Origin: a virus
IMG/VR virus record: IMGVR_UViG_3300047510_001757
Span: 1 to 36,277 of that record
Reading direction: 5' to 3' (one strand)
DNA length: 36,277 nt
Part shown: in pieces, positions 1 to 36,277 of the stretch
How positions within the stretch are numbered: position 1 is the first letter of the stretch
How the letters are laid out: the number at the start of each line of letters is the position of its first letter
Position numbers and translations under genes: made by a program
Notes under the pieces: generated by a model
The model's database searches: none
The model's input: the letters and a program-made list of their open reading frames with translations, nothing else
Told to the model about the DNA's origin: nothing

Positions 1-32
1 CTTCCCCCCTGATTTCCCCTATGTCCGCGGAT

Positions 33-46
33 TTAGGACGTCCTAA
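33..46. promoter_or_regulatory. Perfect 14-bp palindrome, possible operator
   Basis: The sequence TTAGGACGTCCTAA reads the same on both strands and the symmetry stops at both edges. It lies in non-coding DNA near the left edge of the window. Perfect 14-bp dyads outside genes are typical of binding sites for dimeric regulators, but no cognate protein can be assigned. Confidence 0.35.
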
Positions 47-386
47 CTTATAGCCACGCCCTCGCCATTCCCGGTGGTAGTTCGCGTTTGAAAACGTTTC
101 GCGAATTACCCAACGGATTTACACCAAATCAAACCGCAAGCCAGCAGAGGGCGTCGTCTGCAATTCCGTATCGGGCGTTTACGGATTCCCTCGACGAGTT
201 ACCCTTCGGTACTGCTGTTCTACCGTCCAACTCCCAAACGCGCGCACATCACCACCGACCACGTTGCAGGCAGGCAGAGCGTGGATTTGTTTCTGCTATG
301 CGCCGTCTAGCACGGTTAGGATTGATGACGTACGCGCGGGAACGTACGCGACGGGGAAACCGAGACTAAGCCCCGCCTAAAACAAT

Positions 387-465
387 CGCCACCGCCGGAA
401 TCGAACCGACGCGCCTACCCCCGTAGAAATTGAGGCGATTCCAACGTGACGGAAACGAAGTGGCC
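387..465 (-). other. tRNA-like 3' half, possible degenerate tRNA or attachment core
   Basis: On the minus strand, 410-394 forms a canonical T-arm: stem GTCGG, loop TTCGATT, stem CCGGC. The next bases (GGTGGC, 393-388) pair with GCCACT (464-459) to give a six-pair acceptor-like stem. Between them a CTAC/GTAG mini-hairpin (426-415) sits where a class II variable arm would be. No acceptable D-arm is found. The best anticodon stem, GGAAT/ATTTC, has a loop with G instead of the invariant U33, and the first acceptor pair is G-G. A working tRNA is therefore unlikely. It could be a decayed tRNA, or the copied 3' end of a host tRNA as in an attP core, although no integrase is present. Confidence 0.3.
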
Positions 466-525
466 CCGGCAGAGCCCTATGGGTCAACCCACCGGAGAAA
501 GTGAGCATAGGGATACCGGGGCCAT
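460..525. ncRNA. Strong structured hairpin, candidate non-coding RNA
   Basis: Bases 461-469 (TGGCCCCGG) pair perfectly with 516-524, plus a wobble pair outside. After a small internal loop, 475-480 (CCCTAT) pair with 507-512 (ATAGGG). Inside this, 481-490 can form a short GGG-TCAA-CCC hairpin. The 9+6 bp GC-rich arrangement in otherwise gene-free DNA is hard to explain by chance. No T-run follows on either strand, so it is not a standard intrinsic terminator. The left arm overlaps the acceptor-like pairing of the adjacent tRNA-like sequence, so the two structures may be alternatives. Direction of transcription is unknown. Confidence 0.4.
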
Positions 526-605
526 CTCTCTTCGATTGTGTGATGAGGTTGACCGCCTCACCCTTCTAACTCTACACCGATTTACTCACGACGCAACGTA
601 ACTAC

Positions 606-1004
606 CTATGTCGATCCCTCTTCCTTTAATCGCTTCGTGCGAAAAAACTCCGCATGCTCCGGGTAATCCTTCATGAACAACCGCGCGTAATACGGCGCGT
701 AATTGTTGTTCATCTTGAACTCTTCACCCGCCGTCTCAATCTCCGTATGCCATCGGATACGCTCGATGATGGCCTTGCTTGAATACTGCTTGAATCCGCG
801 TCGAATGACGTCGAGCGTGAATCGCGTAAACAATTCGTACACGTGCGGATTCATTCGATGCCATCGCCACCATTGTCGTTTTATCGTATCTGATTCCTCG
901 ACCTGCTGAACCGCCGCCGCGAACAAACCATCACCGAACGGCATATCCGCGCGTAACTGATACTTGCGCTGTATCTCGCGCTCCTCTTCGTCGCCGTACG
1001 TCAT
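606..1004 (-). CDS. Conserved hypothetical phage protein
   Basis: This 132-aa acidic/aromatic protein carries a segment around residues 55-120 with YELFTRFTLDVIRRG, AIIERIRWHTEIET and NNNYAPYYARLF. From memory this pattern recurs in uncharacterised proteins of many phages and mobile elements, where 'RIRWHT' and 'NNNxxxxYAR' are the most conserved parts. No catalytic motif is evident. The ATG overlaps the stop of the upstream gene by four bases (ATGA), so the two are translationally coupled. It is the last gene before the non-coding left end, downstream of the SSB-like gene. Existence is secure; function is unknown. Confidence 0.8.
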   Translation of the reverse strand: MTYGDEEEREIQRKYQLRADMPFGDGLFAAAVQQVEESDTIKRQWWRWHRMNPHVYELFTRFTLDVIRRGFKQYSSKAIIERIRWHTEIETAGEEFKMNNNYAPYYARLFMKDYPEHAEFFRTKRLKEEGST

Positions 1005-1249
1005 GATTCGTCACCCTCATCCGTTCCCAACGCCGCCGCCTCGCAGATATGACACGGTTGCGCAAGCAAATGAAACGGGCAGAATTCCATCCAATCCTCT
1101 TCCGTTTCGTACCCACGTTCCGTGCGCTCACCATCCGGCAGATACCGACCGCGCCATTCCCCAACGCCACCCGTATCCGGGTGACGTTGAGGCCACGGTG
1201 CAAAAGACAGACGCACAATTTTTTCCCACCACTCTTCTTTGCGATGCAT
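1001..1249 (-). CDS. Small protein with a possible zinc-binding C-terminus
   Basis: I place the start at the ATG at 1249, preceded by GGAG seven bases upstream, rather than at a longer frame whose N-terminus is low-complexity basic sequence. The 82-aa product begins MHRKEEWWEKIVRL. Near its end it contains C-x2-H-x5-C-x2-C (CPFHLLAQPCHIC), which could bind one zinc ion, followed by an acidic tail. The stop overlaps the next gene's start by four bases. I recognise no family. It is one of several small Cys/His-rich proteins in this genome. Confidence 0.7.
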   Translation of the reverse strand: MHRKEEWWEKIVRLSFAPWPQRHPDTGGVGEWRGRYLPDGERTERGYETEEDWMEFCPFHLLAQPCHICEAAALGTDEGDES

Positions 1250-1277
1250 TGAAAGTTCTCCGGTGTTGTTCGCGTGA

Positions 1278-1952: not shown

Positions 1953-2020
1953 AATGCTTGCCTCTCCCTCTTGCGTGTGAACTTCAATCACCGACCGCCG
2001 AATTGCGGCCCGTGTCCTAC

Positions 2021-2260: not shown

Positions 2261-2286
2261 GGTATCGCCCCCAAAATGATACATCC

Positions 2287-3066: not shown

Positions 3067-3359
3067 ACAAATCCCACGCGCTTGACCGCTTCAATTGGAA
3101 GCACAAAGTCTTCGCCGTCCTCTTCGTCCGGCACTTCGATAACTCCACCGTGAACACTTCCCGCATCGTTTACTAATTCGACGTAACCCACGCGCACTAA
3201 CTCGCGCACCACATCGAGCAAACACTTTGCGACGACGCTCGCGTCTACCGCTGGCACCGAATCGATTTCGATTGACAATCCGTTGCGATGTATAGACACC
3301 GATGCGGTACGGTTTGATAGCACATTCGCACCGCGCGCAGGTCGCTTTTTACTTGGCAT
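3063..3359 (-). CDS. Hypothetical protein
   Basis: The product is 98 aa from the ATG at 3359, with GGAGG just upstream; a GTG at 3362 is an alternative. A basic N-terminus (KKRPARG) precedes a mixed alpha/beta segment (VSIHRNGLSIEID, VVAKCLLDVVRELVRVGYVEL) and a very acidic stretch (VPDEEDGEDFVLPIE). No known domain is recognised. Its start overlaps the metallophosphoesterase stop by 11 bases, and it shares a four-base overlap with the next gene. Confidence 0.6.
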   Translation of the reverse strand: MPSKKRPARGANVLSNRTASVSIHRNGLSIEIDSVPAVDASVVAKCLLDVVRELVRVGYVELVNDAGSVHGGVIEVPDEEDGEDFVLPIEAVKRVGFV

Positions 3360-4689
3360 CACTCCTCCGCATATCGGGGTTGGTCATTGACATGCCAACG
3401 AGTCCGCCGTCGCCGTGATAGTGAAATGACTGCATCCCACGAGCCGCACCGACAAAACCTTCCGACGCATGCCATCCATCCGGTGGACACAACGCCGGAT
3501 GCGTACGCACCACGACGCCACTCAACGTTTCAACTTCCGCCATCGAATGAAGATGTCCCGTATGTATCTCTCGATACGACGCACCACCCCACGCCTCGCG
3601 CGCCTCGATTGCCATCAACTCATGCAATCGCTTTCGCGCCTTATCGCCGTGCGTCAATCCAAACAAGCACTTGCCATACCTCACGTATTTGCGCGCCGTG
3701 TTTCTTGCATCTATCGTCACATTGCGCGCGCGCCTAAACTCCGCCGACAAAATCTGACTGAGCGCCACCGTCATTACCGCATCATGGTTGCCGGGAACCA
3801 ATACGACATCAACGGGACCACGCATCGCCATGTCAGATATGACATCGCACAACGTCGCGACCGCCTCCTCTAACATCTTCTCCACGCGACCATCGCGGTC
3901 GAGTGGCGTTCCCTTTGTCGTCGTTCCATGTGGCGTATCGTAATGCAACAAATCGCCAAGACACCACAACGCGCGACGCTCGACAGGTACCGACGTTTCT
4001 AACAACTCCGCAACCGATTCGCGAATCAATTGCGTTGCGATAGAGATGTCGTAATCCCCCCATCCCGTTTCGCGACTCCACGCATATTTCCCAATGTGTG
4101 GGTCCGACAACACTAGCGCCTGCAATGTCTTCGACGTATTGCTCTTGGTCTTTGACTGACCGTATACAATAGGTTTGCGCATCTCAAACGCACCGCGCAC
4201 CAACGCCTCGACCGCCTCCAATACTGACGGCCCCGCCTTTGGTTTAAGACGAACAAAGACGCGATGTAATTCCGTCGTCTTTACTTTACCCGTCGTTACA
4301 TCTTTCGTCGCGACTTCGTACTTCGTCGCTTCACTTCTATCAATCTCAAACCGCGTCATATCCGCTTCGATATGTCGAAGCAAATCATCCACCGTTTTAA
4401 TTCGCGCACCATTGGCACGCGCCTCAATACCGTTGGGTCCGTTTGTTGCCTCGACCGTTTGTTCCGTCTCGACAACTGGCACAATGTTCTTGGGTTTCTC
4501 TCCAACCTTAACGCCTAACTTGCCACGCTTTAATGCCACCGCGGATTCCGTACGCACCGCATGTCCACGGTGAAACTCTTTGTTGAGTTCTTTTGCAACA
4601 CTACCCGCGCTCATTCCACGCGCTGACAGTTCGCACAATCGCGCGGCCTCTTTTGCGCTCCACTCAGCGTAATCGTGTCGTGCGCCCAT
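3349..4689 (-). CDS. Metallophosphoesterase with N-terminal HTH-like domain
   Basis: The 446-aa product carries the full calcineurin-like metallophosphoesterase set: SDPHIG (D196, H198), GDLLHYD (D246), GNHD (300-303), THGD (H347) and GHLH (H379, H381). These residues bind the two metals. Such phage enzymes act on phosphodiesters, possibly nucleic acids or nucleotides. Residues 5-57 (WSAKEAARLCELSARGMSAG, later RTESAVALKRGKLG) resemble a GcrA/SANT-like DNA-binding helix bundle, which would target the enzyme to DNA. The start at 4689 follows AGG closely and lies six bases from the previous stop; a longer frame to 4752 is less likely. The substrate is unknown. Confidence 0.85.
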   Translation of the reverse strand: MGARHDYAEWSAKEAARLCELSARGMSAGSVAKELNKEFHRGHAVRTESAVALKRGKLGVKVGEKPKNIVPVVETEQTVEATNGPNGIEARANGARIKTVDDLLRHIEADMTRFEIDRSEATKYEVATKDVTTGKVKTTELHRVFVRLKPKAGPSVLEAVEALVRGAFEMRKPIVYGQSKTKSNTSKTLQALVLSDPHIGKYAWSRETGWGDYDISIATQLIRESVAELLETSVPVERRALWCLGDLLHYDTPHGTTTKGTPLDRDGRVEKMLEEAVATLCDVISDMAMRGPVDVVLVPGNHDAVMTVALSQILSAEFRRARNVTIDARNTARKYVRYGKCLFGLTHGDKARKRLHELMAIEAREAWGGASYREIHTGHLHSMAEVETLSGVVVRTHPALCPPDGWHASEGFVGAARGMQSFHYHGDGGLVGMSMTNPDMRRSDAK

Positions 4690-4694
4690 ACTAC

Positions 4695-5138
4695 CTATCG
4701 AATAAAGGTGACGCCCAAAGACACCGCTAACACACTTGCCACCCATCGCCATCGCTGACGCGACGCGCTTTCCGCATCAACGATGTGACGCAATTCATCA
4801 ACCTGTTCTCGCAAATTTGCGACGCGCGCGTTGCACGTTTGTACCACCGCATAACACGACGCGATTGCAGAATCCGCAACATCACGTCGCATATACACCG
4901 TATCCGCGCGCATCACCGTATCCGTCACGCGCGCCGTGTCGTATTGCATCCGCCACCGCTCCGCCGTTACGACGCGCGCTTTATAGACCGTATCTAATCG
5001 CGCCTCAACAACGCGCAACGTATCAATACGATATTCCGCGCGCGCGCGTGACGACGGCATGACGCGCGACGTTATCATGTGTCCAACCACTACACCGACG
5101 CAAAAAGCAACAAAGCGTAGTACGCTCGAACTACGCAT
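4695..5138 (-). CDS. Spanin-like membrane protein of the lysis cassette
   Basis: The 147-aa product has a hydrophobic N-terminal segment (about residues 7-24), a periplasm-like middle with repeated DTV/DTVY units, a short predicted coiled coil (about 105-125) and a hydrophobic C-terminal segment (about 130-145). It follows the amidase gene with an eight-base overlap, the usual place for an Rz-type inner-membrane spanin. Classical Rz has only one N-terminal anchor, so the C-terminal membrane segment is unusual. Similar DTVY-rich proteins are, from memory, seen in phages of less-studied Gram-negative phyla. The role is inferred from position and topology. Confidence 0.5.
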   Translation of the reverse strand: MRSSSVLRFVAFCVGVVVGHMITSRVMPSSRARAEYRIDTLRVVEARLDTVYKARVVTAERWRMQYDTARVTDTVMRADTVYMRRDVADSAIASCYAVVQTCNARVANLREQVDELRHIVDAESASRQRWRWVASVLAVSLGVTFIR

Positions 5139-11880: not shown

Positions 11881-12321
11881 TTAGTATTCGCAAATCATCG
11901 CGCTTGGCGATGCATCGACATTGATTAGCACGAACGTCATCGAATACAACAGCAACGCCTTATCTTGAAGCGCAATTGACACATCGCCACCCGGAGCTAA
12001 GCAACACGTATCGTATACATTGTTGTTGCTATCTTCCGTATCTACTTCCACCGTTCCGCCACCAAGCAACCATGCCTGACACCGCAACATGTCATCCATC
12101 TTGGTATTCGGAATCTCGTTCATCGTAAACGACGCGCCGTAATCCGTACGAAATGCAAACTGATATCGCATCCCCGTACCGAGTGCTGTGGTCGCGGGAC
12201 CAATGGGCTTTTGAAATGGCGTCCAATCCGCAAAGCGCGAACCAAGTCCGTCGCTCACCGCCGTCGTGCCATTGTCGAGCGTGACGCTTCCAACGTCATC
12301 TGTGAAAGAGATAGAAGCCAT
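11881..12321 (-). CDS. Tail protein in the distal-tail position
   Basis: The 146-aa product is beta-rich (ISFTDDVGSVTLDNG, YQFAFRTDYGASFTM, LLLYSMTFVLINVDA) with a CC pair near residue 106. It lies between the tape measure, overlapping its stop by one base (TAATG), and the hub-fiber gene. In siphoviruses this is where the distal tail (Dit) protein or a tail-tip adaptor is encoded. The length is short for Dit, and no family is recognised by sequence. Confidence 0.55.
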   Translation of the reverse strand: MASISFTDDVGSVTLDNGTTAVSDGLGSRFADWTPFQKPIGPATTALGTGMRYQFAFRTDYGASFTMNEIPNTKMDDMLRCQAWLLGGGTVEVDTEDSNNNVYDTCCLAPGGDVSIALQDKALLLYSMTFVLINVDASPSAMICEY

Positions 12322-14093
12322 TACGGAAGTCTCCCACGATTGTTGGCCTTATTCATCAATTCTTGAATAGCGCGCTGTGCCGACGGGTCATTCGGTCCAA
12401 TGACGGTGACGTTCATCGGGGTCATCGGATTCATACCCGAACCCGTCGTTGCAGACGTAGAACCAAATACCAACTGTGTCGTGGGTAATCCGGGTGCTAC
12501 ACTATTGCCACCGAACGACCGCACACTCGACGCCGCTCCGCCTTTCTGACCGCCAAACATTCCACGCGCTACACCCTTCAACGCCGACCCCGCCGCAATC
12601 AACGCAATCGCCGCGACGAGTGACGTCTCGGGATTCAAGAAGGTGAGACCATCCATGATGGTTTTCATCAATCCCGCAAACGTCGCCGACTGCGTACCGA
12701 ACGCAATCATCGCGTCACCAAGTCCCGCGAGCATCATTGACGACATCGCTTTAAATCCTTCACTAATACTACCCGACGCAATCGCCTGTTCGATGCCACC
12801 CGTAATACCGCCAACAAGGGCCGCACTCATGGTTTGCTGAAATGTCGTTTGCATTTCCAACGCCAACGCCTCAGCTTCACTTAAGATAAGTGGCTTTGCC
12901 GCAGGGATTAGACCAGCCAGCTTTGCCCGCAAATCTTGCAAAAATGCACCACGTGGCTGTGGTGTAAAAAACGTCATCCCCTCGCGCTGACCGAGTTCCT
13001 CAATTGTCGGCTTCTTGCGACCACCCGAACCAAATGCGTCGCCCATTCCACCAAGTGCGCCCGACATATCACGTGCGGCACTCGTACCCATCACCACTTC
13101 CGTTCGCCAATCCCTTAAACGATTCTGCAATCCTTCAAAATAGGTATCGTTTTCCGATACCTTCTCGTTCATATCATCAACCATCCTCCCAATATCATCG
13201 CCAATACCGGGAAGCAGAGTGCCAAACGCACCTATAAACGTCAATGCCGCCGCACCAATTGCCGCAAAGAATCGCACAATGGCTAGGCCAACTTGAGCAA
13301 CCAATGAACCAATGGTGACGATACCCTTTATAAAATTCTCGAAGACAAACTGAACTGGTCCTTTTAATACGCGCACCATGTCATTGATGGCGTTGATTGA
13401 ACCAACCATCGAGTTACCAGTTTTTTCATTTGCCTCAAACAAATTCCCGAACTGTTCGCGCAATGCCGCCAATGCACCGCCCAACGTATTGCGATACGCC
13501 TCCGCCGCTCCATTGAGGCGACCTTCCAACTGTTTAAGAATGATGCCTTGCGCTTCCGTAACGCGCCCAGACTCCGCCAACGCTTTGATATACTTCTGTT
13601 GGTCTTCAGAAAAGAGGCGCGTCTGTCTATTGAGCGCCGTCAGTCCATTCGCAGGGTCTTGCAACGCCTTACCAACCATCGACGCCGCGCTCGACAAATC
13701 AATGCGCAACTTGGTTGCAAGGTCAAGAATCGCTGGCAAACTCTGTTCGTAAATCGCACCACTAATGTTGGTATACATCAACAATAGTGCTTGCGCCGAG
13801 CCAATGGCTTCATCGCCAAACGCGCTGACATTCATCAACGCTTCCGCTTGCTTGTTCAACGACTCAATGGTTTGACCGCTCGCGCCATTCGTCGCCGCTA
13901 ATGCGCTCGCCAAATCCGCCTGTACGCGCTGTGACTCCGCCGTCTCTGCAACAAACTTATTGAGCGCATACGTCACCGAAGCAAACGTCGCTACCGTCTT
14001 TGCAACTTCAGCACCAAGAGTGCGCAACGATGCTTTGAGCGTTGCCGACCCCTCTTCCTTCAACAACAGCGAGAGTGCCATCACATCAACCAT
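12321..14093 (-). CDS. Tail tape measure protein
   Basis: The 590-aa product has the standard features: an Ala-rich helical N-terminal half (EVAKTVATFASV, SLNKQAEALMN, a KALQDPANGLTALNR segment typical of lambda-like tape measures), a hydrophobic central region (about 245-300) and Gly-rich C-terminal segments with further hydrophobic helices. It sits directly after the frameshifted tail chaperones. It sets tail length and is expelled with the DNA. By the usual ~1.5 angstrom per residue, 590 aa suggests a tail near 90 nm, which is an inference. Confidence 0.9.
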   Translation of the reverse strand: MVDVMALSLLLKEEGSATLKASLRTLGAEVAKTVATFASVTYALNKFVAETAESQRVQADLASALAATNGASGQTIESLNKQAEALMNVSAFGDEAIGSAQALLLMYTNISGAIYEQSLPAILDLATKLRIDLSSAASMVGKALQDPANGLTALNRQTRLFSEDQQKYIKALAESGRVTEAQGIILKQLEGRLNGAAEAYRNTLGGALAALREQFGNLFEANEKTGNSMVGSINAINDMVRVLKGPVQFVFENFIKGIVTIGSLVAQVGLAIVRFFAAIGAAALTFIGAFGTLLPGIGDDIGRMVDDMNEKVSENDTYFEGLQNRLRDWRTEVVMGTSAARDMSGALGGMGDAFGSGGRKKPTIEELGQREGMTFFTPQPRGAFLQDLRAKLAGLIPAAKPLILSEAEALALEMQTTFQQTMSAALVGGITGGIEQAIASGSISEGFKAMSSMMLAGLGDAMIAFGTQSATFAGLMKTIMDGLTFLNPETSLVAAIALIAAGSALKGVARGMFGGQKGGAASSVRSFGGNSVAPGLPTTQLVFGSTSATTGSGMNPMTPMNVTVIGPNDPSAQRAIQELMNKANNRGRLP

Positions 14094-23769: not shown

Positions 23770-25116
23770 TTACTCTTCGTCGCCGAGCACAACGAACGGC
23801 GAGTGCGGATTCACCTTCGCCCCAGCCCCGTCAACCTTGTACGCATAGGTCGAGGTCGGGAGCGGGATGCCACCGCCACGCGCAACGAAACGATACGTGG
23901 TGATGTCGTTGGTGAACTTGAAGTGAATCGACGACTCAACGGTGAGCGCCTGACGGAGCCCCATCGCGTAGAAGTCACCGTTCACCAGCGCCACATCGCC
24001 CTGCGTCCCGAGCGACGGGAGCAGGTCGGTCACCACAACCGGGAGCCCGAGAAGAAGCATCTGCGGCTTATCGCGCAGGTTGCTAATCCAAGTGACCATC
24101 GTGTTGTTAGTGGTCTGAAGCGCGAAGAGCTGCGGCATCACATTACGCGACACCATCCACACGCTGTTCGGCCCGTGGGTGTGCTTCGTATACATCTCGA
24201 ACGCATCCGCCGCGCCAAAGGCGTTGGCGTTTGCGCGCGGGACGACGATGAGCGCACCGTTCGACGCATTGAGCGCGCCAAGCGGCTGGCTCGACCCGGT
24301 GCCGTCGATGGTGATGTCTTCGTTCATCTTGTTGACAATCTGCCCACCGACCGCCGTGGTCACCTCCGACGGAAGCTCCCCGGTGAAGTCATCGGCAAGA
24401 ATTTCGTCGCCGAACTCGGTGATAGCGGCATACTTGTACATGGTCAGCAGACGCTGACCGAACGACGGCTCGCGCGACGGCTTCAGGTCACCTTCACCGA
24501 CGATGGTGACGTTGGCAATCTTACCAGCCATCGGGCGGTTAAGGGTCGACGTCCCCTCGTCCTGAATAAGATACGGAATCCGAAGGGTGCGGCCCGGAAC
24601 GTTGTACTTCTTCGCGAACTGGAACAGACCGACCTGCGTGTTTGACACGCTAAAGATGTCGGGCTCCTGCGTCAGCGGGAGAAGGAACTCGCCGCCATTG
24701 GTCGAACCCGTAATGGTACGGGTCATGACATCGAGCTTGCGAAGCGCCTCGGCCTCGACATTGTTCGCCGCACCCTTTGCCACCGCGCGGATGTACGAAC
24801 CAATCGAACCGAACGACTTAATAACCTCACGCCGCATCTCACCCTTCGCATCCTTCATGTTGCGGAACTCATTCTTATCCGCGACATCGAAACGGGTAAG
24901 CTCCGCGTCGCCACCCTGACGCGCAATCTCGGCATCGGGAGTGAACTCAGCGGCGGCCTGCGCGCGCATCTCGAGCGCACGAATGTCGGAGGTGCGCTTC
25001 TCCACTTCCTCGGCAGTAAACTGCACGGAAGCATCCATAAGCTCGCTCCGGAGCTTATGCGCCTGCTCGCGAAGCTCATTCGCCACGCGATTCTTGGAAA
25101 CCATCGGGGTCTTCAT
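23770..25116 (-). CDS. Major capsid protein, HK97 fold
   Basis: The 448-aa product has a charged, helical N-terminal delta/scaffold region of about 100-125 residues (KNRVANELREQAHKLRSELMD, EEVEKRTSDIRALEMRAQAAAEF). The HK97-fold core follows (NGGEFLLPLTQEPDIFS, RIPYLIQDEGT, EPSFGQRLLTMYKYAAITEFGDEIL, VWMVSRNVMPQL, LPVVVTDLLPSLG, DVALVNGDFYAMG). The delta region should be removed by the upstream protease. I choose ATG 25116 over GTG 25131 because only the former has an SD-like GTGAGA at usable distance. Codons are markedly C/G-ending, as expected for the most abundant virion protein. Confidence 0.92.
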   Translation of the reverse strand: MKTPMVSKNRVANELREQAHKLRSELMDASVQFTAEEVEKRTSDIRALEMRAQAAAEFTPDAEIARQGGDAELTRFDVADKNEFRNMKDAKGEMRREVIKSFGSIGSYIRAVAKGAANNVEAEALRKLDVMTRTITGSTNGGEFLLPLTQEPDIFSVSNTQVGLFQFAKKYNVPGRTLRIPYLIQDEGTSTLNRPMAGKIANVTIVGEGDLKPSREPSFGQRLLTMYKYAAITEFGDEILADDFTGELPSEVTTAVGGQIVNKMNEDITIDGTGSSQPLGALNASNGALIVVPRANANAFGAADAFEMYTKHTHGPNSVWMVSRNVMPQLFALQTTNNTMVTWISNLRDKPQMLLLGLPVVVTDLLPSLGTQGDVALVNGDFYAMGLRQALTVESSIHFKFTNDITTYRFVARGGGIPLPTSTYAYKVDGAGAKVNPHSPFVVLGDEE

Positions 25117-25127
25117 TGTATTACGTC

Positions 25128-25937
25128 TCACTTACAAGGGGTTGCAAACGATTGACGCACCGCCCTAATGCGGTCCGTCATACTTACGCCTCGCATCTCG
25201 TCCGATGCCGGAACGGACAGCGTATCTACAACAGGTGTAGACGCGGCCTCCGGTGTGGGCTTCGGGAGGGGAGCAAGGTACTCCGCCAGAAGTGCAGTAC
25301 GCATCTCTGACGACAACGCATCCAACGCCAACCGTGCCGCCAACATAAGCACACGCATCGGGTCGGACTCTTCCAACATCTCATCATCATCTTCCATCGG
25401 CGCGATATCATCCTTGCGCGCTGACGTCACCGCCGCCCCCGGTACCGCAGGCATTGGCGTAATAGACACTTCGCGCAACTCAATCTCCGTAAACCGCTCG
25501 ACGTTCGCGCCATCAACGACAACAATTTCCGACTTGCGCGGCATGAATCCAATTGAGAATCCCGTCGAAGCACCCGCCGCCATTACCGCCTTGACGTATT
25601 CCATCGCCGCGCGTCCCTCTTCCGTATCAAACACTTCCGCCGTCATCACAACCGCATCACCCGCATCGGACATTGCCGACACCACGCCAACGTGCGCGCG
25701 TGTTGACGCCTCATGGTCCATAAGGAGTGGCACCTTGCGAGCCGCGACGCGCTGGTCGATAGACCGCTTCGCACATCCACGCGCGAACATCGTGCCGTAA
25801 CTATCTACGACGTCATACGTAACCGCGACGCCGTTTACCCGGCCCGCAATTCCGGGCGGTAGATTCTCTTCCGCGCGCACCTGAAGCGAAGAATGGGCAA
25901 CGTGCCACACCTTTGTCACCGTATTCGAAGCGGTCAT
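25128..25937 (-). CDS. Prohead protease (HK97 gp4-like, U35)
   Basis: The 269-aa product carries the herpesvirus-protease-like triad pattern of phage prohead proteases: H75 in LLMDHEAS, S128 in STGFSIGF and a supporting acidic residue near E156 (IELREVSITPMPA). The protease domain spans about 20-175. An acidic linker (PMEDDDEMLEESD) and a helical tail follow. It cleaves the capsid delta domain and itself during head maturation. It begins in an ATGA overlap with the portal gene and precedes the capsid gene, the canonical order. Confidence 0.9.
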   Translation of the reverse strand: MTASNTVTKVWHVAHSSLQVRAEENLPPGIAGRVNGVAVTYDVVDSYGTMFARGCAKRSIDQRVAARKVPLLMDHEASTRAHVGVVSAMSDAGDAVVMTAEVFDTEEGRAAMEYVKAVMAAGASTGFSIGFMPRKSEIVVVDGANVERFTEIELREVSITPMPAVPGAAVTSARKDDIAPMEDDDEMLEESDPMRVLMLAARLALDALSSEMRTALLAEYLAPLPKPTPEAASTPVVDTLSVPASDEMRGVSMTDRIRAVRQSFATPCK

Positions 25938-28891
25938 ATCTCATCCTGTGTGTAATACACTAACGTGCAACGGCAGTTGATTACTTCGCTTGCATCGCCG
26001 CTCGGGTCCAGAGGATACGCCAACCCATTGTTGAACGTCTCGCCAATCGGAATAATACCTTCCGCCATCGCCAACAAATGCGTGTCGCGCGTCTTGTCGT
26101 CATCAAACGACAGCCACTCCTTCGCGACAAAGATTCCCGCCTCTTGCGCTTGGTCCCAACTGCCTTGCGACATTGCGCCCGACGACTCCGTGCGAGCAAT
26201 CGCCATCGCGCGCGCCTCCGTATTGGCGCGACCGAACGCCGTCTGTTGCACAAGGTCCGCAATCTCACGGAACGACAACCCCGCGCGCTCTCCCGCCATA
26301 ATCGCCGCCGATATCTGACGGTACGACGTCTTGCTTACTTCACCCGCCAAACTATTTGCGCGGTTCTTAATAGCGCGCTGTACCGCCTTCGACTGCAACG
26401 TGAAGGATACCGTAACATTCGGCACATCCTCCGCCCCGCGCAAATACGTCGGGCCAATAAGACGCTGGTACCTCTTGTCCCATCGCTCGCGATACTCACC
26501 ACCGCGCGCGTACTTCTTACGAATTTCGTCTTTTGCCTTTTTCAACTTCGCATCCGCGCGCTGATTCGCATTGAAGATGCGCTCGACGTCAACGGATTCG
26601 AAATCGAACAACGTCTTGGCTTCCGCCTTATACGCCATTTCTTCGGCGTCCAATACCTTTTGCACCCGCTCCCACTTCGCGCGCTTCGCATCCGTCATCG
26701 TGATGATTTCATCGGACGACGTATTGCGCTCCGTCTTGTCCTTCGCCTCACGAATGACCGCGCGCATGTGGTCGAGGCCACGCGACCCGACTGCAAGCCA
26801 CTTGATTTGCGCCACCACTCCCGCGAGTTGGAAGTCGCCCTCATGTCGCGCGACCCACGCTTCACGCAACCGAATAGCGTTCTCTTCCGCTTCGCCATCG
26901 GGAACGCCGCCACGCTTTGCGATTGGCGCGAGCTTCGCGAATTGCTCGTTGCCCTTTACGTTCCCACCCTTTGACCAAATCTCGGGCCAGTTTTCTTTCA
27001 GGTCCTCGGCCTCTCCGACCGGGAATAGCGACCATTGCGAATTCCGGAGCGACACCTTCTTATCGTCCCCATCGCTCGGAAAGTTGCTCTTTTCTTCCGC
27101 GCGCACTCCGACGCCTTCGACTTCGGACTCTTCCTCGATTTCCTCTTCGTCGTCGTCGCCCTCTTCCTCACTCTCTTCCGCCTCACGCGCTGGCACCGAT
27201 GCACCAACCGCTGTAACAACTTCGCCCGTGGTATCGACCACGTTCGGCGTCGTCGCCGCACCCGTACCCGCCGACCCCATCAACGCTTCCGCAACGTCGG
27301 ACGCAAGGTTGAAGAATACCTTTAGCATCGCCACGCCAGCATCGCGCGGCATTTGACCCGCCGCGACCGCCAATACGATATCCTTTGCGCTCGCAATCTG
27401 CGCGCCATTGAGCACCGTCGCCTCCGTCGTCTGAATCTCGCCAGACGGTGGCACCGCACCCTCAATGTTTGCGCTCGGCATTGGCGCGGCATCCAACTCC
27501 GCGGATTCCTCCGCCGTCAATGTCGGAGCAATTGCCAGAGCCGACGGCACCAACGTAGACGCCGGAGTAATCATCAACGACTCGACGGGCTCCGGTACGG
27601 GCGACAACTTCAACGCGCGACGCGATTCCTCGAACGTACGCAACGACGCCGCAAACTCCGCGCGAATACGATTTGATGTCGTCTCGTCATTCTCAACCAA
27701 ATCGCGAAGTACGTTCGCATCATACGCGACGTATACGTCACCGAACTCTGGCGCGAGCCAGTTGTTAATCTCATCTTCGAATACAACGAGCATTGGTTCG
27801 ATGGTATGCTGAACCAATCGCGCGCGCGCCTCCGCATACTGAATCCCAGAGAGTCCCGCATCGCTTGACGCCGACCCGATACCAATCATGCGCGGGTCCA
27901 CGCCAAACGCCGCGCAGATATCTTCACGCGACACCCGCCGCAGGTCGGGAAACTCTAGGTCATTGAGCGTGAAGCCCAACGGTTTGATGTCCTTTACCGA
28001 ACCAAAGAACGCAGGCGCACCACGCTTGCCACGCTCGACCGTGCGCGCCGTATATCGCTGTTGCATCGACAGCGCATCATCCGCCGTCGCCTCATCGGAA
28101 AGAATCACCGCGAACGTCGGGGTTCCGTCATTCGACACGACCTGTCGAACGTAATTCGTCGCCTCGTTATCCGCGACGATGGATTGAATTGCCGTCGCTC
28201 CGCGCGGATATCCAAACACATCCGGGAAATACGGGCGCGGCATATCGAGGTCGCGGAAATGCAACACATCCTCAACGGGTGCGTTGCGCACAATGCCCGA
28301 CCAATCGCTGTAATCGTATCGCGCGGGGTCACCATCCGCATCGACCCACACCGACTGCAATGCTTCGGGATTGATAGAACGCAAACTAATGATGCGACCC
28401 GTTCCGCTCGCACCCGCGCGCTCTAGATGAAACATCGAGTTGCCGTATCCAAGAAAATCAACCGCGAATCGTGCGCGCAACTGACGCGCCGTAATCTTTC
28501 CGCCCGGATGATTGAGCAACTTTTGTAGCGGATGGTTATCGCCCACCGCCGACTCACGATTTCCGCGCTCTTTCAATACGACCAGAGGAACCGACGCAAT
28601 GATATCTGCCACCGCGCGGATACACGCATGCACGACGGGATGCTCATTGAATCCACGCGCGCGAACATTTGCGCCGAGTGGCTTATACTCTTGCGGATTT
28701 GCCGACCGTACCATCTGCAAGCCAGCAACACCCGTTCCCGGAAACGTCGTCGGTATCACACTACGCGCCTCACCCTCCGGCGCATTAAACGTGCGAAGCG
28801 CATGAGCGACGCGCGAGATAATGGAACGACGACTATCTGTCGGCAATACGCACTCGGCGAAGAGAGTTTTTTGGTACTCTATATGCACCAT
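25934..28891 (-). CDS. Portal-MuF fusion protein
   Basis: The 985-aa product joins two virion proteins that are usually separate. Residues ~60-440 form an HK97-type portal (FNEHPVVHACIRAVADIIASVP, FLGYGNSMFHLERAG, VSREDICAAFGVDPRMIG, IQYAEARARLVQHTIEPML). A Pro/Ala linker and an acidic patch (about 565-590, EESEEEGDDDEEEIEEE) follow. Next is an unrecognised segment with a Trp/Gly-rich motif (ENWPEIWSKGGNVKGNEQF, RLREAWVARHEGDFQLAGVVAQIKWLAVG). The last ~180 residues are a Mu F / SPP1 gp7-type minor head domain (LSFREIADLV, AIARTESSGAMSQGSWDQ, HLLAMAEGIIPIGETFNNG, EVINCRC). Each capsid would thus carry twelve MuF copies inside the portal vertex. Confidence 0.88.
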   Translation of the reverse strand: MVHIEYQKTLFAECVLPTDSRRSIISRVAHALRTFNAPEGEARSVIPTTFPGTGVAGLQMVRSANPQEYKPLGANVRARGFNEHPVVHACIRAVADIIASVPLVVLKERGNRESAVGDNHPLQKLLNHPGGKITARQLRARFAVDFLGYGNSMFHLERAGASGTGRIISLRSINPEALQSVWVDADGDPARYDYSDWSGIVRNAPVEDVLHFRDLDMPRPYFPDVFGYPRGATAIQSIVADNEATNYVRQVVSNDGTPTFAVILSDEATADDALSMQQRYTARTVERGKRGAPAFFGSVKDIKPLGFTLNDLEFPDLRRVSREDICAAFGVDPRMIGIGSASSDAGLSGIQYAEARARLVQHTIEPMLVVFEDEINNWLAPEFGDVYVAYDANVLRDLVENDETTSNRIRAEFAASLRTFEESRRALKLSPVPEPVESLMITPASTLVPSALAIAPTLTAEESAELDAAPMPSANIEGAVPPSGEIQTTEATVLNGAQIASAKDIVLAVAAGQMPRDAGVAMLKVFFNLASDVAEALMGSAGTGAATTPNVVDTTGEVVTAVGASVPAREAEESEEEGDDDEEEIEEESEVEGVGVRAEEKSNFPSDGDDKKVSLRNSQWSLFPVGEAEDLKENWPEIWSKGGNVKGNEQFAKLAPIAKRGGVPDGEAEENAIRLREAWVARHEGDFQLAGVVAQIKWLAVGSRGLDHMRAVIREAKDKTERNTSSDEIITMTDAKRAKWERVQKVLDAEEMAYKAEAKTLFDFESVDVERIFNANQRADAKLKKAKDEIRKKYARGGEYRERWDKRYQRLIGPTYLRGAEDVPNVTVSFTLQSKAVQRAIKNRANSLAGEVSKTSYRQISAAIMAGERAGLSFREIADLVQQTAFGRANTEARAMAIARTESSGAMSQGSWDQAQEAGIFVAKEWLSFDDDKTRDTHLLAMAEGIIPIGETFNNGLAYPLDPSGDASEVINCRCTLVYYTQDEI

Positions 28892-28929: not shown

Positions 28930-30174
28930 TTACACGACAAACCCTCCGCCGCCTCGCAACATTGTCCACGACACCGCCCACACCATCGCATCCATGCGGT
29001 CGGGACTAAACGACGTCTCATCCGGCGTCCACGACGTCATCTGTTGTTCCAACTTCGCAAACGTTCCCACGTGATGTATTAGCCCTCTCTCATACAACGC
29101 CGCAACAGGTTCCGCGCGTTTCGCTTTACCGCGCGACGCATGAACCGAACGGTACGGTATACTCGCATCGACCGCGCGCAACGTCGCTTCGACCATATCG
29201 CCACCGTTGTTTGATTCTCCGATGATTCTATCCGCGCCGTATTGTCTATACAACGCGATAGCTTTGTTCGCCCATTCGTGTGGCTTATACCTTCCGCTCC
29301 CGTCGTGTAATACGTATCCGTGTCCATCCTTACCCAATCCAAGTACGACGATACCCGTTTCATCACTATCCGGCCCCGACGTCGCCGCAGGGTCAATCGC
29401 TACAACCACGCGCCGGAAATCTTTAGTCGATTCCGCGACGCGATTCTCGATGATGAGTTCCGGTGTCCACAACGCTCCCGGTGCCGCCGACAACGAATCC
29501 CAATCTCCTAATACAAACCGCCTATATTCTCTTTCCGGCAGATTCTTCAACGCCTCGCGGTATTCGTCGGAGATGTGCGGATTGTCTGCCACCGTCGCGG
29601 GTTGAAAGTAATACGGCTCGCGCAACGTCCCCGCCTTGTGCGCGTCGTAAAACGTTTCCTTCACCCACCCCAACCCCGGATTACACGTGAGTAGAATCAA
29701 CGGCGACGGCTGTTCCCCATTCGGAACAACCCATGACCCCGCGCGCTCGACTGCTTTATACCACGCCGCTTGCGATAATTCGTTCGCCTCTTCCAATACG
29801 AAACCGTTCACCTCCAATCCCTTCCACGCATCGAGGTCCGGGTCCGCCGTGATGTTTTCGTTTACGAATAAGATTTCGGAACCGTTAGAACACTCCATCG
29901 TCCACGACGCAAAATTGATAGCGCCCGTGAACCCCGGTATACGAAACTTACTTATCGCTGGCAATACGTTGCGACGAATACTCGGTATGTCTTTACGAAC
30001 AATCGCCCACCGCGACCGAGGATAGATTCGCGCCAACGCCTGAACAATCATAAGAGCGAGCGACGTCTTCCCACTTCGAATCCCACCGCCATATAGCAAA
30101 TAACGAAAGCGACCAGAGAAGGCCGCTTCCGCGAATTGCCGCTGTGCTGGCGTCTCCTCAAAGAATCGCGTCAG
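28930..30174 (-). CDS. terL: Terminase large subunit, apparent CTG start
   Basis: This is the ATP-driven packaging motor and nuclease. Walker A is LYGGGIRSGKTS, Walker B is FVLEEANE. The RNase H-like nuclease shows AIDPAATSGPDSDETG, IIGESNNGGDM and SPDRMDAMVW as acidic motifs. A TTG at 30099 would cut off the 25 residues containing the adenine-binding-type segment TPAQRQFAEAAFSGRFRYLL, typical of TerL. The frame is open to a stop at 30178 and contains no ATG, GTG or TTG before 30099. A CTG at 30174-30172 overlaps the TerS stop (CTGA) and lies eight bases after AAGGAG. I therefore call CTG 30174, giving 414 aa. Confidence 0.88.
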   Translation of the reverse strand: MTRFFEETPAQRQFAEAAFSGRFRYLLYGGGIRSGKTSLALMIVQALARIYPRSRWAIVRKDIPSIRRNVLPAISKFRIPGFTGAINFASWTMECSNGSEILFVNENITADPDLDAWKGLEVNGFVLEEANELSQAAWYKAVERAGSWVVPNGEQPSPLILLTCNPGLGWVKETFYDAHKAGTLREPYYFQPATVADNPHISDEYREALKNLPEREYRRFVLGDWDSLSAAPGALWTPELIIENRVAESTKDFRRVVVAIDPAATSGPDSDETGIVVLGLGKDGHGYVLHDGSGRYKPHEWANKAIALYRQYGADRIIGESNNGGDMVEATLRAVDASIPYRSVHASRGKAKRAEPVAALYERGLIHHVGTFAKLEQQMTSWTPDETSFSPDRMDAMVWAVSWTMLRGGGGFVV

Positions 30175-30539: not shown

Positions 30540-31256
30540 CTATACGTTGAGTTCGATGGTGAACGTATTCGCTTTGCGCTTGGCCTTGCGAATCATTCCG
30601 GGGTATTGCTTGATAAGTTTTTTAATCGCATCACGTTCCATTTCTATCGTTCGATAGTCCTTGCATCCTCCCTCCGTCGTCCAATGTTCATTTTGCCAAT
30701 GCATATAGCGGATACCGTATATCCCGCCGTATTTCTGCATATGTCTTAAACATATCTCGTAATCCTCTTTCACGCGATATGATTCGTCGAAATAGAATTC
30801 GCCATCGTTCACCATCCCCATGCACGACGCCGTGAGATAGGTTCGCGTAAGGAATGGCTTATACGGATAGACGGAACGCAACGCCGCTTCCGTCTTTAAT
30901 CCCCACATCTTATAGCCCATTTGTACCGTAACGTCAAACGCTTTGACGAACTCATCAACCCAAAACTGTTCGTCCTTTATCTGAATCTGTTTCCCGTTGC
31001 GCATAAGCAACTTGGTATATCCCGTCGCCATCGCATCGTCATCGAGGAAGACGACCCACTCATCCCCCGCATTGCGCAGAATCCAATTGCGCGTCGCCGT
31101 AATACCGCGCACTTCCTTCGGTACTGCGACAACGTTTCGCACGTAATTGTATTGGTGAGCTTCCGACTCCGGCACGAAAAACGTTCCCGCCGTAGGAACG
31201 ATTTTGTCCGTCGTCGTATTCCCCGCCCTACTCTTGCTTGGTATTGCGATGAGCAT
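30540..31256 (-). CDS. Glycosyltransferase resembling TET-associated (TAGT) type
   Basis: The 238-aa product has a GT-A-like plan: MLIAIPSKSRAGNTTTDKIV, then FVPESEAHQY, VVAVPKEVRGITATRNWIL and VVFLDDDAMATGY, where D72-D74 form the metal- and sugar-nucleotide-binding DxD. Later come WGLKTEAALRSVYPYKPF and EDYEICLRHMQKYGG, containing the acidic ED pair typical of catalysis. From memory, 'IPSKGR...GI..ARNWI' and 'DDD' are features of TAGT glycosyltransferases that sugar-modify oxidised thymine or cytosine in phage DNA. No TET/JBP oxygenase is present here. A cell-wall or virion substrate is the alternative. It overlaps the ParB-like gene by 29 bases. Confidence 0.7.
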   Translation of the reverse strand: MLIAIPSKSRAGNTTTDKIVPTAGTFFVPESEAHQYNYVRNVVAVPKEVRGITATRNWILRNAGDEWVVFLDDDAMATGYTKLLMRNGKQIQIKDEQFWVDEFVKAFDVTVQMGYKMWGLKTEAALRSVYPYKPFLTRTYLTASCMGMVNDGEFYFDESYRVKEDYEICLRHMQKYGGIYGIRYMHWQNEHWTTEGGCKDYRTIEMERDAIKKLIKQYPGMIRKAKRKANTFTIELNV

Positions 31257-31854
31257 CGTATCTCTCTTGAAAGTCAGGCCACTTTAACACGCGCTCTAAT
31301 CCCAACGCATCAAACGGGCTTCCCTCTTTATACCCGCCACGCCTTACCATTTTGAGTTTCAACGTTTCTTTGATGTCTTCCCACTCTAGAGAATTCGGGT
31401 CCGCGATTATGACGATGTATTCGCGCGGCGGTTCCAACTGCACCGACTGTTCTACTTCGACTTCCTCGCCATCCTCCGCCGTATCAATCGGGTCCGGTAC
31501 ATCCAATCCCCACTCCGCCAACTTCTCAACGTCCCAAATATTTGCGAGTGTTTCCCACTCCCACTCACCATACCCAACGTTGTCCTTAATGATGAACTCG
31601 CGCTGTTGCTCCTCCGTCAACGACGACGCGCGCACGACCGGGACGTCCACCAATCCCGCCGCCTCACACGCGCGCAACCGCATATTGCCACCCAATACAA
31701 CGCCGTCTGCATTGACGACCAATGGGCGCAGTTCCAACATCTCCGGGAACTCACGAATCGACCGCACCAACTTTTGAAACGATTCGTCGCGAATAAATCG
31801 CGGGTTGTCCGGGTTGGGCTTGATTTGCCCAAGAGGTACGCGCGTCCACTCCAT
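31228..31854 (-). CDS. ParB-like domain protein
   Basis: The N-terminal ~110 residues form a ParB/sulfiredoxin-like domain: VPLGQIKPNPDNPRFI, SIREFPEMLELRPLVVNADGVVLGGNMRLRACEAAGLVDVPVVRA, then EEQQREFIIKDNVGYGEWEWE. The 'NPRxI' and 'GGxxRLRAxxxxG' signatures are those of ParB-type nucleotidase or DNA-associated domains. An acidic linker (AEDGEEVEVEQ) and a C-terminal domain (PREYIVIIADPNSLEWEDIKETLKL, GLERVLKWPDFQERY) follow. In phages such proteins often accompany DNA methyltransferases or modification genes, not partition loci, and no ParA is present. The start is ATG 31854 or GTG 31857. Confidence 0.8.
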   Translation of the reverse strand: MEWTRVPLGQIKPNPDNPRFIRDESFQKLVRSIREFPEMLELRPLVVNADGVVLGGNMRLRACEAAGLVDVPVVRASSLTEEQQREFIIKDNVGYGEWEWETLANIWDVEKLAEWGLDVPDPIDTAEDGEEVEVEQSVQLEPPREYIVIIADPNSLEWEDIKETLKLKMVRRGGYKEGSPFDALGLERVLKWPDFQERYDAHRNTKQE

Positions 31855-32063
31855 CACTCTTTGTCCTTTCGCTTCGCCGCAATAAGACGACGCGCCGTAT
31901 CGTTTTCCTCTCGCGTGACGCGACGAACCTTTATCGCTGACAACGCGCGCACCTTCTCCAACGTCTCATCGACGTACGTAAAGATAAGCGCCACCAATCC
32001 CAACACGATGAGCAATAACACAAAGAACACCGACGCCACAATATGCAACGCTTGACCCTGCAT
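31854..32063 (-). CDS. Small single-TM membrane protein
   Basis: The ATG at 32063 follows GGAGG by seven bases. The 69-aa product has one strong transmembrane segment (about residues 7-31, VASVFFVLLLIVLGLVALIFTYV) and then a charged cytoplasmic-type tail rich in Arg and Lys. Its stop overlaps the ParB-like start. It could be a membrane-acting early inhibitor or accessory protein; no family is recognised. It is not in the lysis cassette, so holin function is unlikely. Confidence 0.65.
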   Translation of the reverse strand: MQGQALHIVASVFFVLLLIVLGLVALIFTYVDETLEKVRALSAIKVRRVTREENDTARRLIAAKRKDKE

Positions 32064-32065: not shown

Positions 32066-32257
32066 TTAATCCTCCGAACGAGTGATGTGATGGGAATCTC
32101 TTTGTCGCCACTTGCCCCCCACGGGATACGCTCGCTCTCCGTGACACGCCACGCGAAGATTGTGAACGTATATCGCCTCTGTATTGGTGAATCCAATTTC
32201 ACACACCAAGCAATACGATTCGCAATAACACTTGGTTGGCGTTTTCTTTTTACCCAT
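32066..32257 (-). CDS. Small zinc-finger-like protein
   Basis: The 63-aa product starts at ATG 32257 after GGA and has a basic N-terminus, then CYCESYCLVC, a His (YVHN) and ACHGERAYP. This cluster of Cys and His could bind one or two zinc ions, resembling a C2H2-like or treble-clef finger. The start overlaps the VRR-NUC stop by eight bases. It is one of several such small proteins in this operon. Confidence 0.6.
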   Translation of the reverse strand: MGKKKTPTKCYCESYCLVCEIGFTNTEAIYVHNLRVACHGERAYPVGGKWRQRDSHHITRSED

Positions 32258-32666
32258 CACTAATTCCAAGGTGAGATGTTACGACGCGCCACGCATCCGC
32301 CGCCGTCGTCACAATCTCGACCCGCCACCCCGCATTGCGCAATAGCTCATGCCAACGTTTTTGGTTATCGCTTACCCGCCCCTTACCCGTCGGTGACTTA
32401 AACTCTATCGCCAATCCGACCGCGCGCTTATCGAAGGAAGGCCAGAAACACAACCAATCCGGTACCCCCGCCTCGACTCCTTCCGCCTTCATCAATGACG
32501 CCTCACGCGCCGAACGCCGCCCCCCATTCGGCACCGCACACGCCGGATGCGCGCGCGTACGTGGGTCCGTCCTCCATCGCTTCACGAATAAACGTTGCTC
32601 AATCGCTTCAAGGTGTTGCGGCTTGCGACGTATTGCCTGTTTATAAAACGTTGCCATCTTCCCCAC
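32250..32666 (-). CDS. VRR-NUC domain nuclease
   Basis: The 138-aa product has the PD-(D/E)xK core of the VRR-NUC family: EAGVPDWLCFWP (D70), GLAIEFKSPTGKGRVSDNQ (E88, K90, Q102) and a following WRVEIVTTAADAWRVV strand-helix. Stand-alone phage VRR-NUC enzymes act on branched or flapped DNA and are thought to be Holliday-junction or structure-specific nucleases, which would help process replicated DNA before packaging. I choose GTG 32666 because GGAGG lies six bases upstream; an internal ATG at 32657 is the alternative. The start overlaps the upstream gene by 26 bases. Confidence 0.85.
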   Translation of the reverse strand: MGKMATFYKQAIRRKPQHLEAIEQRLFVKRWRTDPRTRAHPACAVPNGGRRSAREASLMKAEGVEAGVPDWLCFWPSFDKRAVGLAIEFKSPTGKGRVSDNQKRWHELLRNAGWRVEIVTTAADAWRVVTSHLGISDG

Positions 32667-34000: not shown

Positions 34001-34003
34001 TTC

Positions 34004-34195
34004 TTAATCCGTTGAGTCGATGTGGTACGTCATGTTACACCCCTTGCACTTTAGCGTACGATGTCCCGCGCGCGCATCGAGCCAATACGATACATCGTCC
34101 CAATCGTGGCTCTTAAACCATCTGTCCGAATCCATCCACGTGCCGGATTCATCCTTGCCGTATTTCAGGCAGACTTCCCCCTGTGCGTTGCTCAT
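34004..34195 (-). CDS. Small Cys-pair protein
   Basis: The 63-aa product contains Trp-rich segments (GTWMDSDRWFKSHDWDDVSYWL), a basic turn and a C-terminal CKGC followed by TYHID. Together with C9 and the late His it may bind zinc. It begins in a four-base overlap with the 268-aa gene, which suggests both belong to the same early transcript. The function is unknown. Confidence 0.55.
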   Translation of the reverse strand: MSNAQGEVCLKYGKDESGTWMDSDRWFKSHDWDDVSYWLDARAGHRTLKCKGCNMTYHIDSTD

Positions 34196-34998: not shown

Positions 34999-35036
34999 TG
35001 TTCTCTCCGTTGATTGTGGTTGACCCTACACAGCGA

Positions 35037-35065
35037 ACAGTATCTACCTTTGTACCTACCCGCAA
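35037..35065 (-). promoter_or_regulatory. Early promoter copy A
   Basis: On the minus strand TTGCGG (35065-35060), 17 bp and TACTGT (35042-35037). The spacer begins GTAGGTAC, as in copies B and C. Transcription would start near 35030, with a ~32-base leader to the 268-aa gene. CTGTGTAGGG around the start is shared with copy B. Confidence 0.7.
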
Positions 35066-35068
35066 GTC

Positions 35069-35209
35069 CTACTTTTTTTCCGTCAACTTGTCGTGCAAAT
35101 CAGCGACAAACTTCTTAAACTCCCCCGCCCCTAGAACCGCATCCCACGCCGCATCAACCGACTTGCCATTGTTGATTTCCCGAAGAATCCGCGCCAGTAC
35201 CTTTTCCAT
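35069..35209 (-). CDS. Small 46-aa early protein
   Basis: The frame begins at ATG 35209, seven bases after GGAG and about 31 bases beyond the start of promoter copy B. A longer reading that includes the promoter is rejected. The product is an amphipathic helical peptide: MEKVLARILREINNGKSVDAAWDAVLG, then AGEFKKFVADLHDKLTEKK. A dedicated promoter for such a short gene suggests an early regulator or host-takeover peptide; no family is recognised. Confidence 0.65.
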   Translation of the reverse strand: MEKVLARILREINNGKSVDAAWDAVLGAGEFKKFVADLHDKLTEKK

Positions 35210-35246
35210 TTCGCCGCTCCCTTTAGAGGTTCGCCCTACACAGTTG

Positions 35247-35275
35247 ATAGTATTTACATACGTACCTACCCGCAA
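35247..35275 (-). promoter_or_regulatory. Early promoter copy B
   Basis: On the minus strand TTGCGG (35275-35270), a 17-bp spacer beginning GTAGGTAC, and TACTAT (35252-35247). It has the best -10 of the three leftward copies. It would start transcription near 35240, just ahead of the 46-aa gene, and could also feed the downstream early genes. Confidence 0.7.
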
Positions 35276-35306
35276 GTGGGAACTTAAGCCATTGAAATTC
35301 AACGAC

Positions 35307-36185
35307 TTACGCCGCCGCCGCGACGGGGGCCACCTTCTCCCCCGTCACGAAATCAGCCGCCGTTTGCGCCATCGACGCCGCGCGCGCCAACATCTCCGGG
35401 TGCGCTTCGCAAGCCTTTGCCCACGACTGTAGGTAAGCCGCCGATTGCGTCACGGATTCCATACCAAACCGCGCAGAAAGAAACGCCGCTCCGATTTCCG
35501 CGACCAACTCTTCGAAGGCGTAATCGGGGTTTCCATACTTGCCGGAGAGATTGCGATTGCAACGCCGCTCTGTTCCCGTCCAATGCGACAACTCATGAAA
35601 GAGCGTTCCGTAGTATCCCGAGGTCGAGGTGAAGGCCGTGACGCGCGGCATATTGATGTAATCCGACGAGTGGTCGTAATACGCGCGCATATCATCCGTG
35701 TGGCAAATCGACGCGCCCGTTGCGCTGACCATGCAATCCGCCTCGGCGTTGCGCTCCAATTCCGTTCGCGTATCCTCCGCCCCCTTCAACTTTGCGAGCG
35801 CCCCTTCCTCGACTTCCTCCAACTGTTCCACGTTGAACACAACGAAAGACTTTGCAAAGAAATAGAACTCCTTCTCCTCCTTGCCCTTGCTGTCTTTCTT
35901 TTCCGCGCGGCTCATGAAGTAAACGTAGGTCCCTTTCTCACCCTTCCGAACCATGCACCCTGCCGCCTGAGCTTGCTTGAACGTCACGAATCCCAAATCA
36001 GTCCACCCCTTCGCCATCGCCTTAAACCACAACGCCACGACGTTGCCACCGCTGTACGCGCGCTTGGTCACCGCATTGACCGGGAAGCCCGACCCCTTCC
36101 ACGGGCGAGCCCACGGCAGGTTTCCCTTCTTCATCTCTTCGACAATCTCGCCGAACACCCGGGCATACACATCGTTGTTAGTCAT
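35307..36185 (-). CDS. ArdC-like antirestriction/ssDNA-binding protein
   Basis: The 292-aa product matches the two-part ArdC design. The N-terminal ~125 residues form the DUF1738-type ssDNA-binding domain (VFGEIVEEMKKGNLPWARPW, NAVTKRAYSGGNVVALW, FVTFKQAQAAGCMVRKGEKGTYVYFM, SFVVFNVEQLE). The rest is a zincin-like peptidase domain with HELSHW (HExxH) and a downstream acidic helix (YAFEELVAEIGAAFL) supplying the third ligand. Plasmid ArdC blocks some restriction systems and protects incoming ssDNA. As the first gene after promoter copy C it is probably made at once on entry. Confidence 0.88.
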   Translation of the reverse strand: MTNNDVYARVFGEIVEEMKKGNLPWARPWKGSGFPVNAVTKRAYSGGNVVALWFKAMAKGWTDLGFVTFKQAQAAGCMVRKGEKGTYVYFMSRAEKKDSKGKEEKEFYFFAKSFVVFNVEQLEEVEEGALAKLKGAEDTRTELERNAEADCMVSATGASICHTDDMRAYYDHSSDYINMPRVTAFTSTSGYYGTLFHELSHWTGTERRCNRNLSGKYGNPDYAFEELVAEIGAAFLSARFGMESVTQSAAYLQSWAKACEAHPEMLARAASMAQTAADFVTGEKVAPVAAAA

Positions 36186-36232
36186 CTCTTCATCTCCGGT
36201 GAAGCGGCGACGTCATTGTCGCCGACCCCTAG

Positions 36233-36261
36233 AGAGTATCTACCTATGTACCTACCCGCAA
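36233..36261 (-). promoter_or_regulatory. Early promoter copy C
   Basis: On the minus strand TTGCGG (36261-36256), a 17-bp spacer beginning GTAGGTAC, and TACTCT (36238-36233). Transcription would start near 36226, about 41 bases before the ArdC-like gene. Only 16 bases lie upstream within the window, so upstream activating sequence is at the other end if the genome is circular. Confidence 0.68.
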
Positions 36262-36277
36262 GTCCCCCTCCAATCCT

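Follow-up and report, generated by a model that had tools for sequence, protein, structure and literature searches.

Near-complete loss of GATC from a tailed-phage genome and its gain and loss among relatives

Why should a phage genome contain a single GATC? The window analyzed here, by which we mean the whole stretch of DNA under study, is a 36,277-base virus record from a tailed phage. Nearly all of its genes lie on the minus strand, and they include genes for terminase, portal, protease, head, tail tape measure, fibres, amidase and exonuclease (Table 1). A relative with 79% identity to the window (G892/L007), itself free of GATC, spans the joined ends of the window, and the window is thus nearly complete and circularly permuted. 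The window has no tRNAs and no Rfam matches, and a near-identity search of a phage collection with the window returned no near relative. Several of the relatives used below come from metagenomes whose numbers we take to be those of lakes; 'freshwater-type' is a loose label for the phage. Positions 8101-8390, in the longer fibre gene (ORF 6684-11867), also match at ~75% a region in G892 and G891 whose homology lies otherwise with the head/fibre side of the window; the two fibre genes may have undergone exchange.

Table 1. Features of the window, with their positions, strands and the matches or counts attached to them
Feature	Position	Strand	Matches and remarks
Sole GATC	613..616		Codons GGA-TCG (Gly-Ser), 5'-3' minus strand, in ORF 606-1004 (minus strand)
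DNA repair exonuclease	3349..4752	-	phrog_704 7e-76; tree of relatives built on this gene
Tail tape measure protein	12321..14093	-	phrog_27166 1.4e-27
Sole CASTG site	19221..19225		38 expected by codon shuffle
Major head protein	23770..25131	-	phrog_10 1.1e-27
Sole GCWGC site	24129..24133		56 expected by codon shuffle
Portal protein fused to head-morphogenesis domain	25934..28891	-	phrog_2662 8.7e-78; phrog_2468 8.8e-34
Terminase large subunit	28930..30099	-	phrog_979 1.6e-57; PF17289
TET-associated/HMC-type glycosyltransferase-like protein	30540..31256	-	PF20691 4e-12; phrog_842 1.2e-19
ParB-like N-terminal domain protein	31228..31857	-	phrog_498 3.2e-25, residues 2-147; PF02195 slightly under cut-off
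VRR-NUC protein	32250-32666		PF08774; resembles resolvase/endonuclease families
ArdC-like anti-restriction protein (ArdcN + zincin-like metallopeptidase domain)	35307..36185	-	PF08401 1.3e-32; PF18818 1.1e-38; PHROG 7245

An exact count finds one GATC in the 36,277 bases, in agreement with a preliminary description of the sequence, which had also placed it across Ser and Gly codons. From base composition alone, 134 sites are expected. The Markov-model count of palindromic tetramers that the same description had proposed as a check raises the expectation to 159 (maximal order; O/E 0.006), and bears out its remark that other palindromic tetramers are common: ACGT, TGCA, TCGA and CGCG have O/E values of 0.89-1.05. 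Among all 256 tetramers GATC has the lowest O/E, the second-lowest being that of GGAC at 0.38. The depletion also goes beyond what composition, protein sequence and codon usage can account for. When synonymous codons are shuffled in 38 ORFs, with every protein and the codon usage held fixed, 139.5 GATC are expected and one is observed (z -15.8); this null is blind to codon-pair context beyond synonymous choice, a gap that is immaterial for GATC itself because of the very large z and the comparison of sister phages given below.

The way in which the sites are missing can be read in the codons. Asp codons ahead of a C are GAC in 70 cases and GAT in none, whereas elsewhere GAT is used 337 times and GAC 148 times (Fisher 1e-32). 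Similarly, none of the 150 Ile codons that follow a G is ATC, compared with 178 of 342 elsewhere, where the other 164 are not (Fisher 1e-37). Across the three codon frames, GAC is used in place of GAT-C, ATT or ATA in place of G-ATC, and NGA-TCN has been left once. The loss of GATC in the window is selection on DNA words, neither on proteins nor on codon usage.

The preliminary description had held that only the exact tetramer is depleted. This stands as far as tetramers are concerned, but GCWGC and CASTG are equally near zero, with one site each against 39 and 32 expected by the Markov model (codon-shuffle expectations are in Table 1). CCWGG (3 observed, 32 expected), CTNAG (8 observed, 40 expected) and the 6-bp sites RCCGGY (0 observed, 17 expected) and ACGCGT (0 observed, 14 expected) are strongly depleted as well. 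GATC is the recognition site of MboI and Sau3AI, and CASTG that of TspRI; DpnII recognizes GATC and TseI recognizes GCWGC (both in PMC6329791). The words purged from the window (GATC, GCWGC and CASTG) are thus orthodox Type II recognition sites, and all three lie within the limits used for site elimination in PMC6286503 (O/E <0.1, with >=15 sites expected).

Host Type II restriction of GATC specificity is very probably the process by which GATC was eliminated from the window. Restriction is the agent that we infer from these sequence patterns, and the enzyme would be one that cuts unmethylated GATC. Hosts would carry a GATC-cutting Type II system (MboI/DpnII/Sau3AI specificity), the phage would shed GATC one base per step, mostly by synonymous changes, and site-free genomes would escape cutting on entry; further Type II systems would purge GCWGC and CASTG and thin CCWGG, CTNAG and some 6-bp palindromes. 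The MboI, DpnII and Sau3AI systems recognize the very tetramer that the window has eliminated, and their connection with it is a presumptive one. Of the two causes named in the preliminary description, selection by GATC-cutting restriction is supported by the codon-level loss and the co-elimination of other Type II sites, and also by two properties of the relatives detailed below, namely the reversal of GATC state at 83-87% identity and the purging of other palindromes. The other, GATC-methylation control, is disfavoured as the sole cause, as it fails to predict the loss of GCWGC, CASTG and CATG.

Two further explanations bear on the same pattern. In some bacteria, methylated GATC takes part in regulation, and on that general ground GATC might be avoided owing to Dam-dependent host processes (replication control, mismatch repair or transcription) and not to cutting. 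We consider this very unlikely, since it predicts neither the parallel purge of GCWGC, CASTG, CATG, CCWGG and CTNAG nor a whole-genome avoidance of GATC that is gained and lost at 83-87% identity. Alternatively, a nuclease encoded by the phage might cut host DNA at GATC and spare the phage, which has no site; the window does encode a VRR-NUC protein and an exonuclease. However, no 4-bp specificity is known for the families that the VRR-NUC protein resembles, and the purge takes in several unrelated words at once, in a set that varies between relatives, so that a phage nuclease seems extremely improbable as the cause.

Comparison with related phages, also proposed in the preliminary description, reveals a loss of GATC that close relatives share and that sister phages reverse. 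Among terminase relatives with 93-97% protein identity, GATC is absent from L002, L003 and L005-L007, with 4 sites of 70 expected in L004 and 1 of 41 in L008; it is also absent from L123, another close relative of the window. At 87% TerL protein identity, L009 and L010 lack both GATC and CATG, and at 85%, L011 lacks CATG and has GATC at 21 of 41 expected. The palindromes eliminated in one or other relative are ACGT, AGCT, CATG, GCGC, GTAC, TCGA and CCGG, and in more distant relatives the loss, as of ACGT, AGCT and CATG, is complete. In the distant TerL relatives L048, L051 and L054, the words ACGT, GCGC, GTAC, TCGA, CASTG and GGWCC are all missing together, a pattern that suggests hosts with many restriction systems. 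Since different Type II sites are purged in different lineages, the relatives fit the prediction of restriction and not that of mutation bias. GATC is kept in a high-GC branch (L106-L122) that has the head gene in common with the window (76-83%), and TerL relatives inside cellular genomes (prophage-type) keep nearly all of the palindromic sites named above.

The sharpest contrast comes from a branch defined by the exonuclease gene. Three of its phages (G910, G911 and G912) have no GATC, with 153, 155 and 128 expected, respectively. G914, with 84-87% nucleotide identity to these three, has 120 of 209 expected, and G915, with 83-86%, has 125 of 223. At positions where the keepers have GATC, the homologous site in the avoiders is GATC in 0 of 1443 cases, compared with a conservation of 0.27-0.56 for sixteen control tetramers, and the replacements are mainly one-step neighbours such as GGTC, AATC, GATT and GACC. 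In an unbiased scan of all testable 4- to 6-base words and degenerate palindromes, GATC is the sole word lost in G910-G912 yet kept in G914; almost every phage of the branch, keeper or avoider, has GCWGC and CCWGG close to zero. The exonuclease tree requires at least five changes of GATC state among its 23 rows. As a separate observation, CGCGCG is strongly over-represented in the window (119 against 53 expected by codon shuffle), and in G910-G912, which are 70% identical to the window, it is absent (63 expected); GCGCGC is absent from them too.

Both states can be found in one metagenome (3300032116), where L127 has no GATC and L129 has 120, and a library artefact is thereby excluded. More broadly, we give practically no credence to the view that the pattern is an artefact, whether of sequencing and assembly or of mutation bias and codon usage: no point in its support was found, and it is contradicted by the codon-shuffle null, the neighbour-dependent codon choice and the conserved-position test, and refuted by L127 and L129.

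What, then, would allow some sisters to keep the site under GATC restriction? The GATC-bearing sisters would be either protected by methyltransferase cassettes or infecting hosts without a GATC cutter. In 38-39 records, the phages with methyltransferase domains are G914, G920, G915, G903 and G901 alone, all of them GATC keepers. None was detected in the GATC-zero phages and loci, an absence that is firmest for the window and for records of ~26 kb or longer, the completeness of several relatives being uncertain. The window itself has no match to any of the five DNA methyltransferase families searched in Pfam (PF01555, PF02086, PF00145, PF05869 and PF02384), and in this respect it is not a self-methylating phage, i.e. 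one that encodes its own enzyme. In G914 the methyltransferase gene (L178:2934-4322, minus strand) is a 1.39-kb insertion adjoining the terminase. G910 is ungapped at this place (G914 22928/24323 corresponds to G910 4205/4207), the site is empty in G911 and G912 too, and G920 has the same gene in the same place as G914. G915 has no terminase-side cassette, and carries a C5 methyltransferase elsewhere (G915:30680-32182, L182). G915 is also the only sister in its group that keeps CASTG (23 of 40) besides GATC.

In raw counts the association of methyltransferases with kept GATC is strong: across 33 terminase-sister loci with a readable site, GATC is kept in 15 of 15 cassette carriers versus 9 of 18 non-carriers (15:0 versus 9:9, p 0.0014), and with any methyltransferase counted the split is 19:0 versus 5:9 (p 5e-5); on the tree, both figures come down to no more than 2-4 contrasts that are independent. 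Because close kinship leaves so few contrasts, the association of the cassette with GATC retention is suggestive only. In a wider set of 80 loci with kin of the G914-type enzyme, GATC is eliminated in none, and non-carriers have likewise rarely eliminated it (1 of 47 and 4 of 66). The target site of the sister methyltransferase is not readable from solved structures or family models. Keepers in which no methyltransferase was detected (G919, L228-L230 and G926) have GATC at about half of expectation or more, so that not every phage of the group has lost it, and may show the part of the picture in which hosts have no GATC cutter.

The distribution of methyltransferases also bears on the type of cutter. 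With a DpnI-type enzyme, phage DNA would be GATC-methylated in one host and cut in another, and the sites would be purged on that account; GATC is indeed under-represented in phages of hosts with GATC Type IIM enzymes as well (PMC6286503). However, the sisters that have GATC carry methyltransferases and the GATC-zero phages carry none, and if the sister enzymes, whose specificity is unproven, act on GATC, their methylation would be harmful under DpnI. We regard a DpnI-type cutter as unlikely, and the finding of methyltransferases only in GATC-bearing sisters leans toward the MboI/DpnII type.

Loss of sites need not be the only defence of the window. Its ArdC-like protein is a possible second anti-restriction layer, and its glycosyltransferase-like protein, kin to TET-associated/HMC glucosyltransferases, could modify the bases of phage DNA, as judged from domain matches. 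The ParB-like protein resembles the front of ParB-methyltransferase fusions, with no methyltransferase domain of its own. The idea that it is half of a fusion present in the sisters was dropped, as no ParB domain occurs in the enzymes of the sisters.

Protein searches with the portal, TerL, exonuclease, head and fibre genes indicate mixed hosts. TerL was also searched for in genome contigs and 388 genomes from the phylum of a Lentisphaeria locus (which we take to be Verrucomicrobiota in GTDB), where full-length matches reach only ~34-42%; the Camelimonas phylum yielded matches to the C-terminal half alone, and the Flavobacteriaceae phylum almost none. Prophage loci tested for other window genes gave no match besides TerL, and no host is therefore claimed. 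The motifs GATC, GCWGC and GGCC are reported in one published Microcystis methylome (PMC4730716), which may serve as a lead and no more.

Type II systems and non-temperate phages are the setting in which the elimination of restriction sites is established (Rusinov 2018, PMC6286503); (near-)complete elimination has been reported in ~1/10 of viral genomes, mostly non-temperate ones and mostly for orthodox Type II sites (PMC6286503). The window is a strong case of this known phenomenon, and like the dsDNA phages of Rusinov et al. 2018 (PMC6286503), it has near-completely lost a Type II site (O/E <0.1). Unlike those cases, it has several specificities near zero at once, and GATC has been gained or lost wholesale between its relatives at 83-87% nucleotide identity. 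A known alternative to site loss is an orphan methyltransferase of the phrog_67 type, common in mycobacteriophages; sister G914 has one beside its terminase, and the window and all GATC-zero relatives have none. The newer part is that sister phages alternate between purging and methylating, an alternation that we infer to concern GATC.

Tentatively, and with rather less than even confidence, the GATC purge and the terminase-side cassette can be regarded as interchangeable ways of meeting the same GATC restriction, between which lineages switch quickly. If so, GATC would be the methylation target of the G914 cassette enzyme; a lineage that lost the cassette would be forced into a genome-wide purge, and one that gained it could let GATC return. 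Phages are usually taken to have site elimination as a fixed property. The sisters at 84-87% identity, however, differ in one word only, by >100 sites, which amounts to a natural experiment, and the contrast between one phage with a cassette and others whose site is empty bears on the speed and route of adaptation to restriction. The purged words may in turn be read as the restriction specificities of uncultured hosts, and could thus provide a lead to those hosts.
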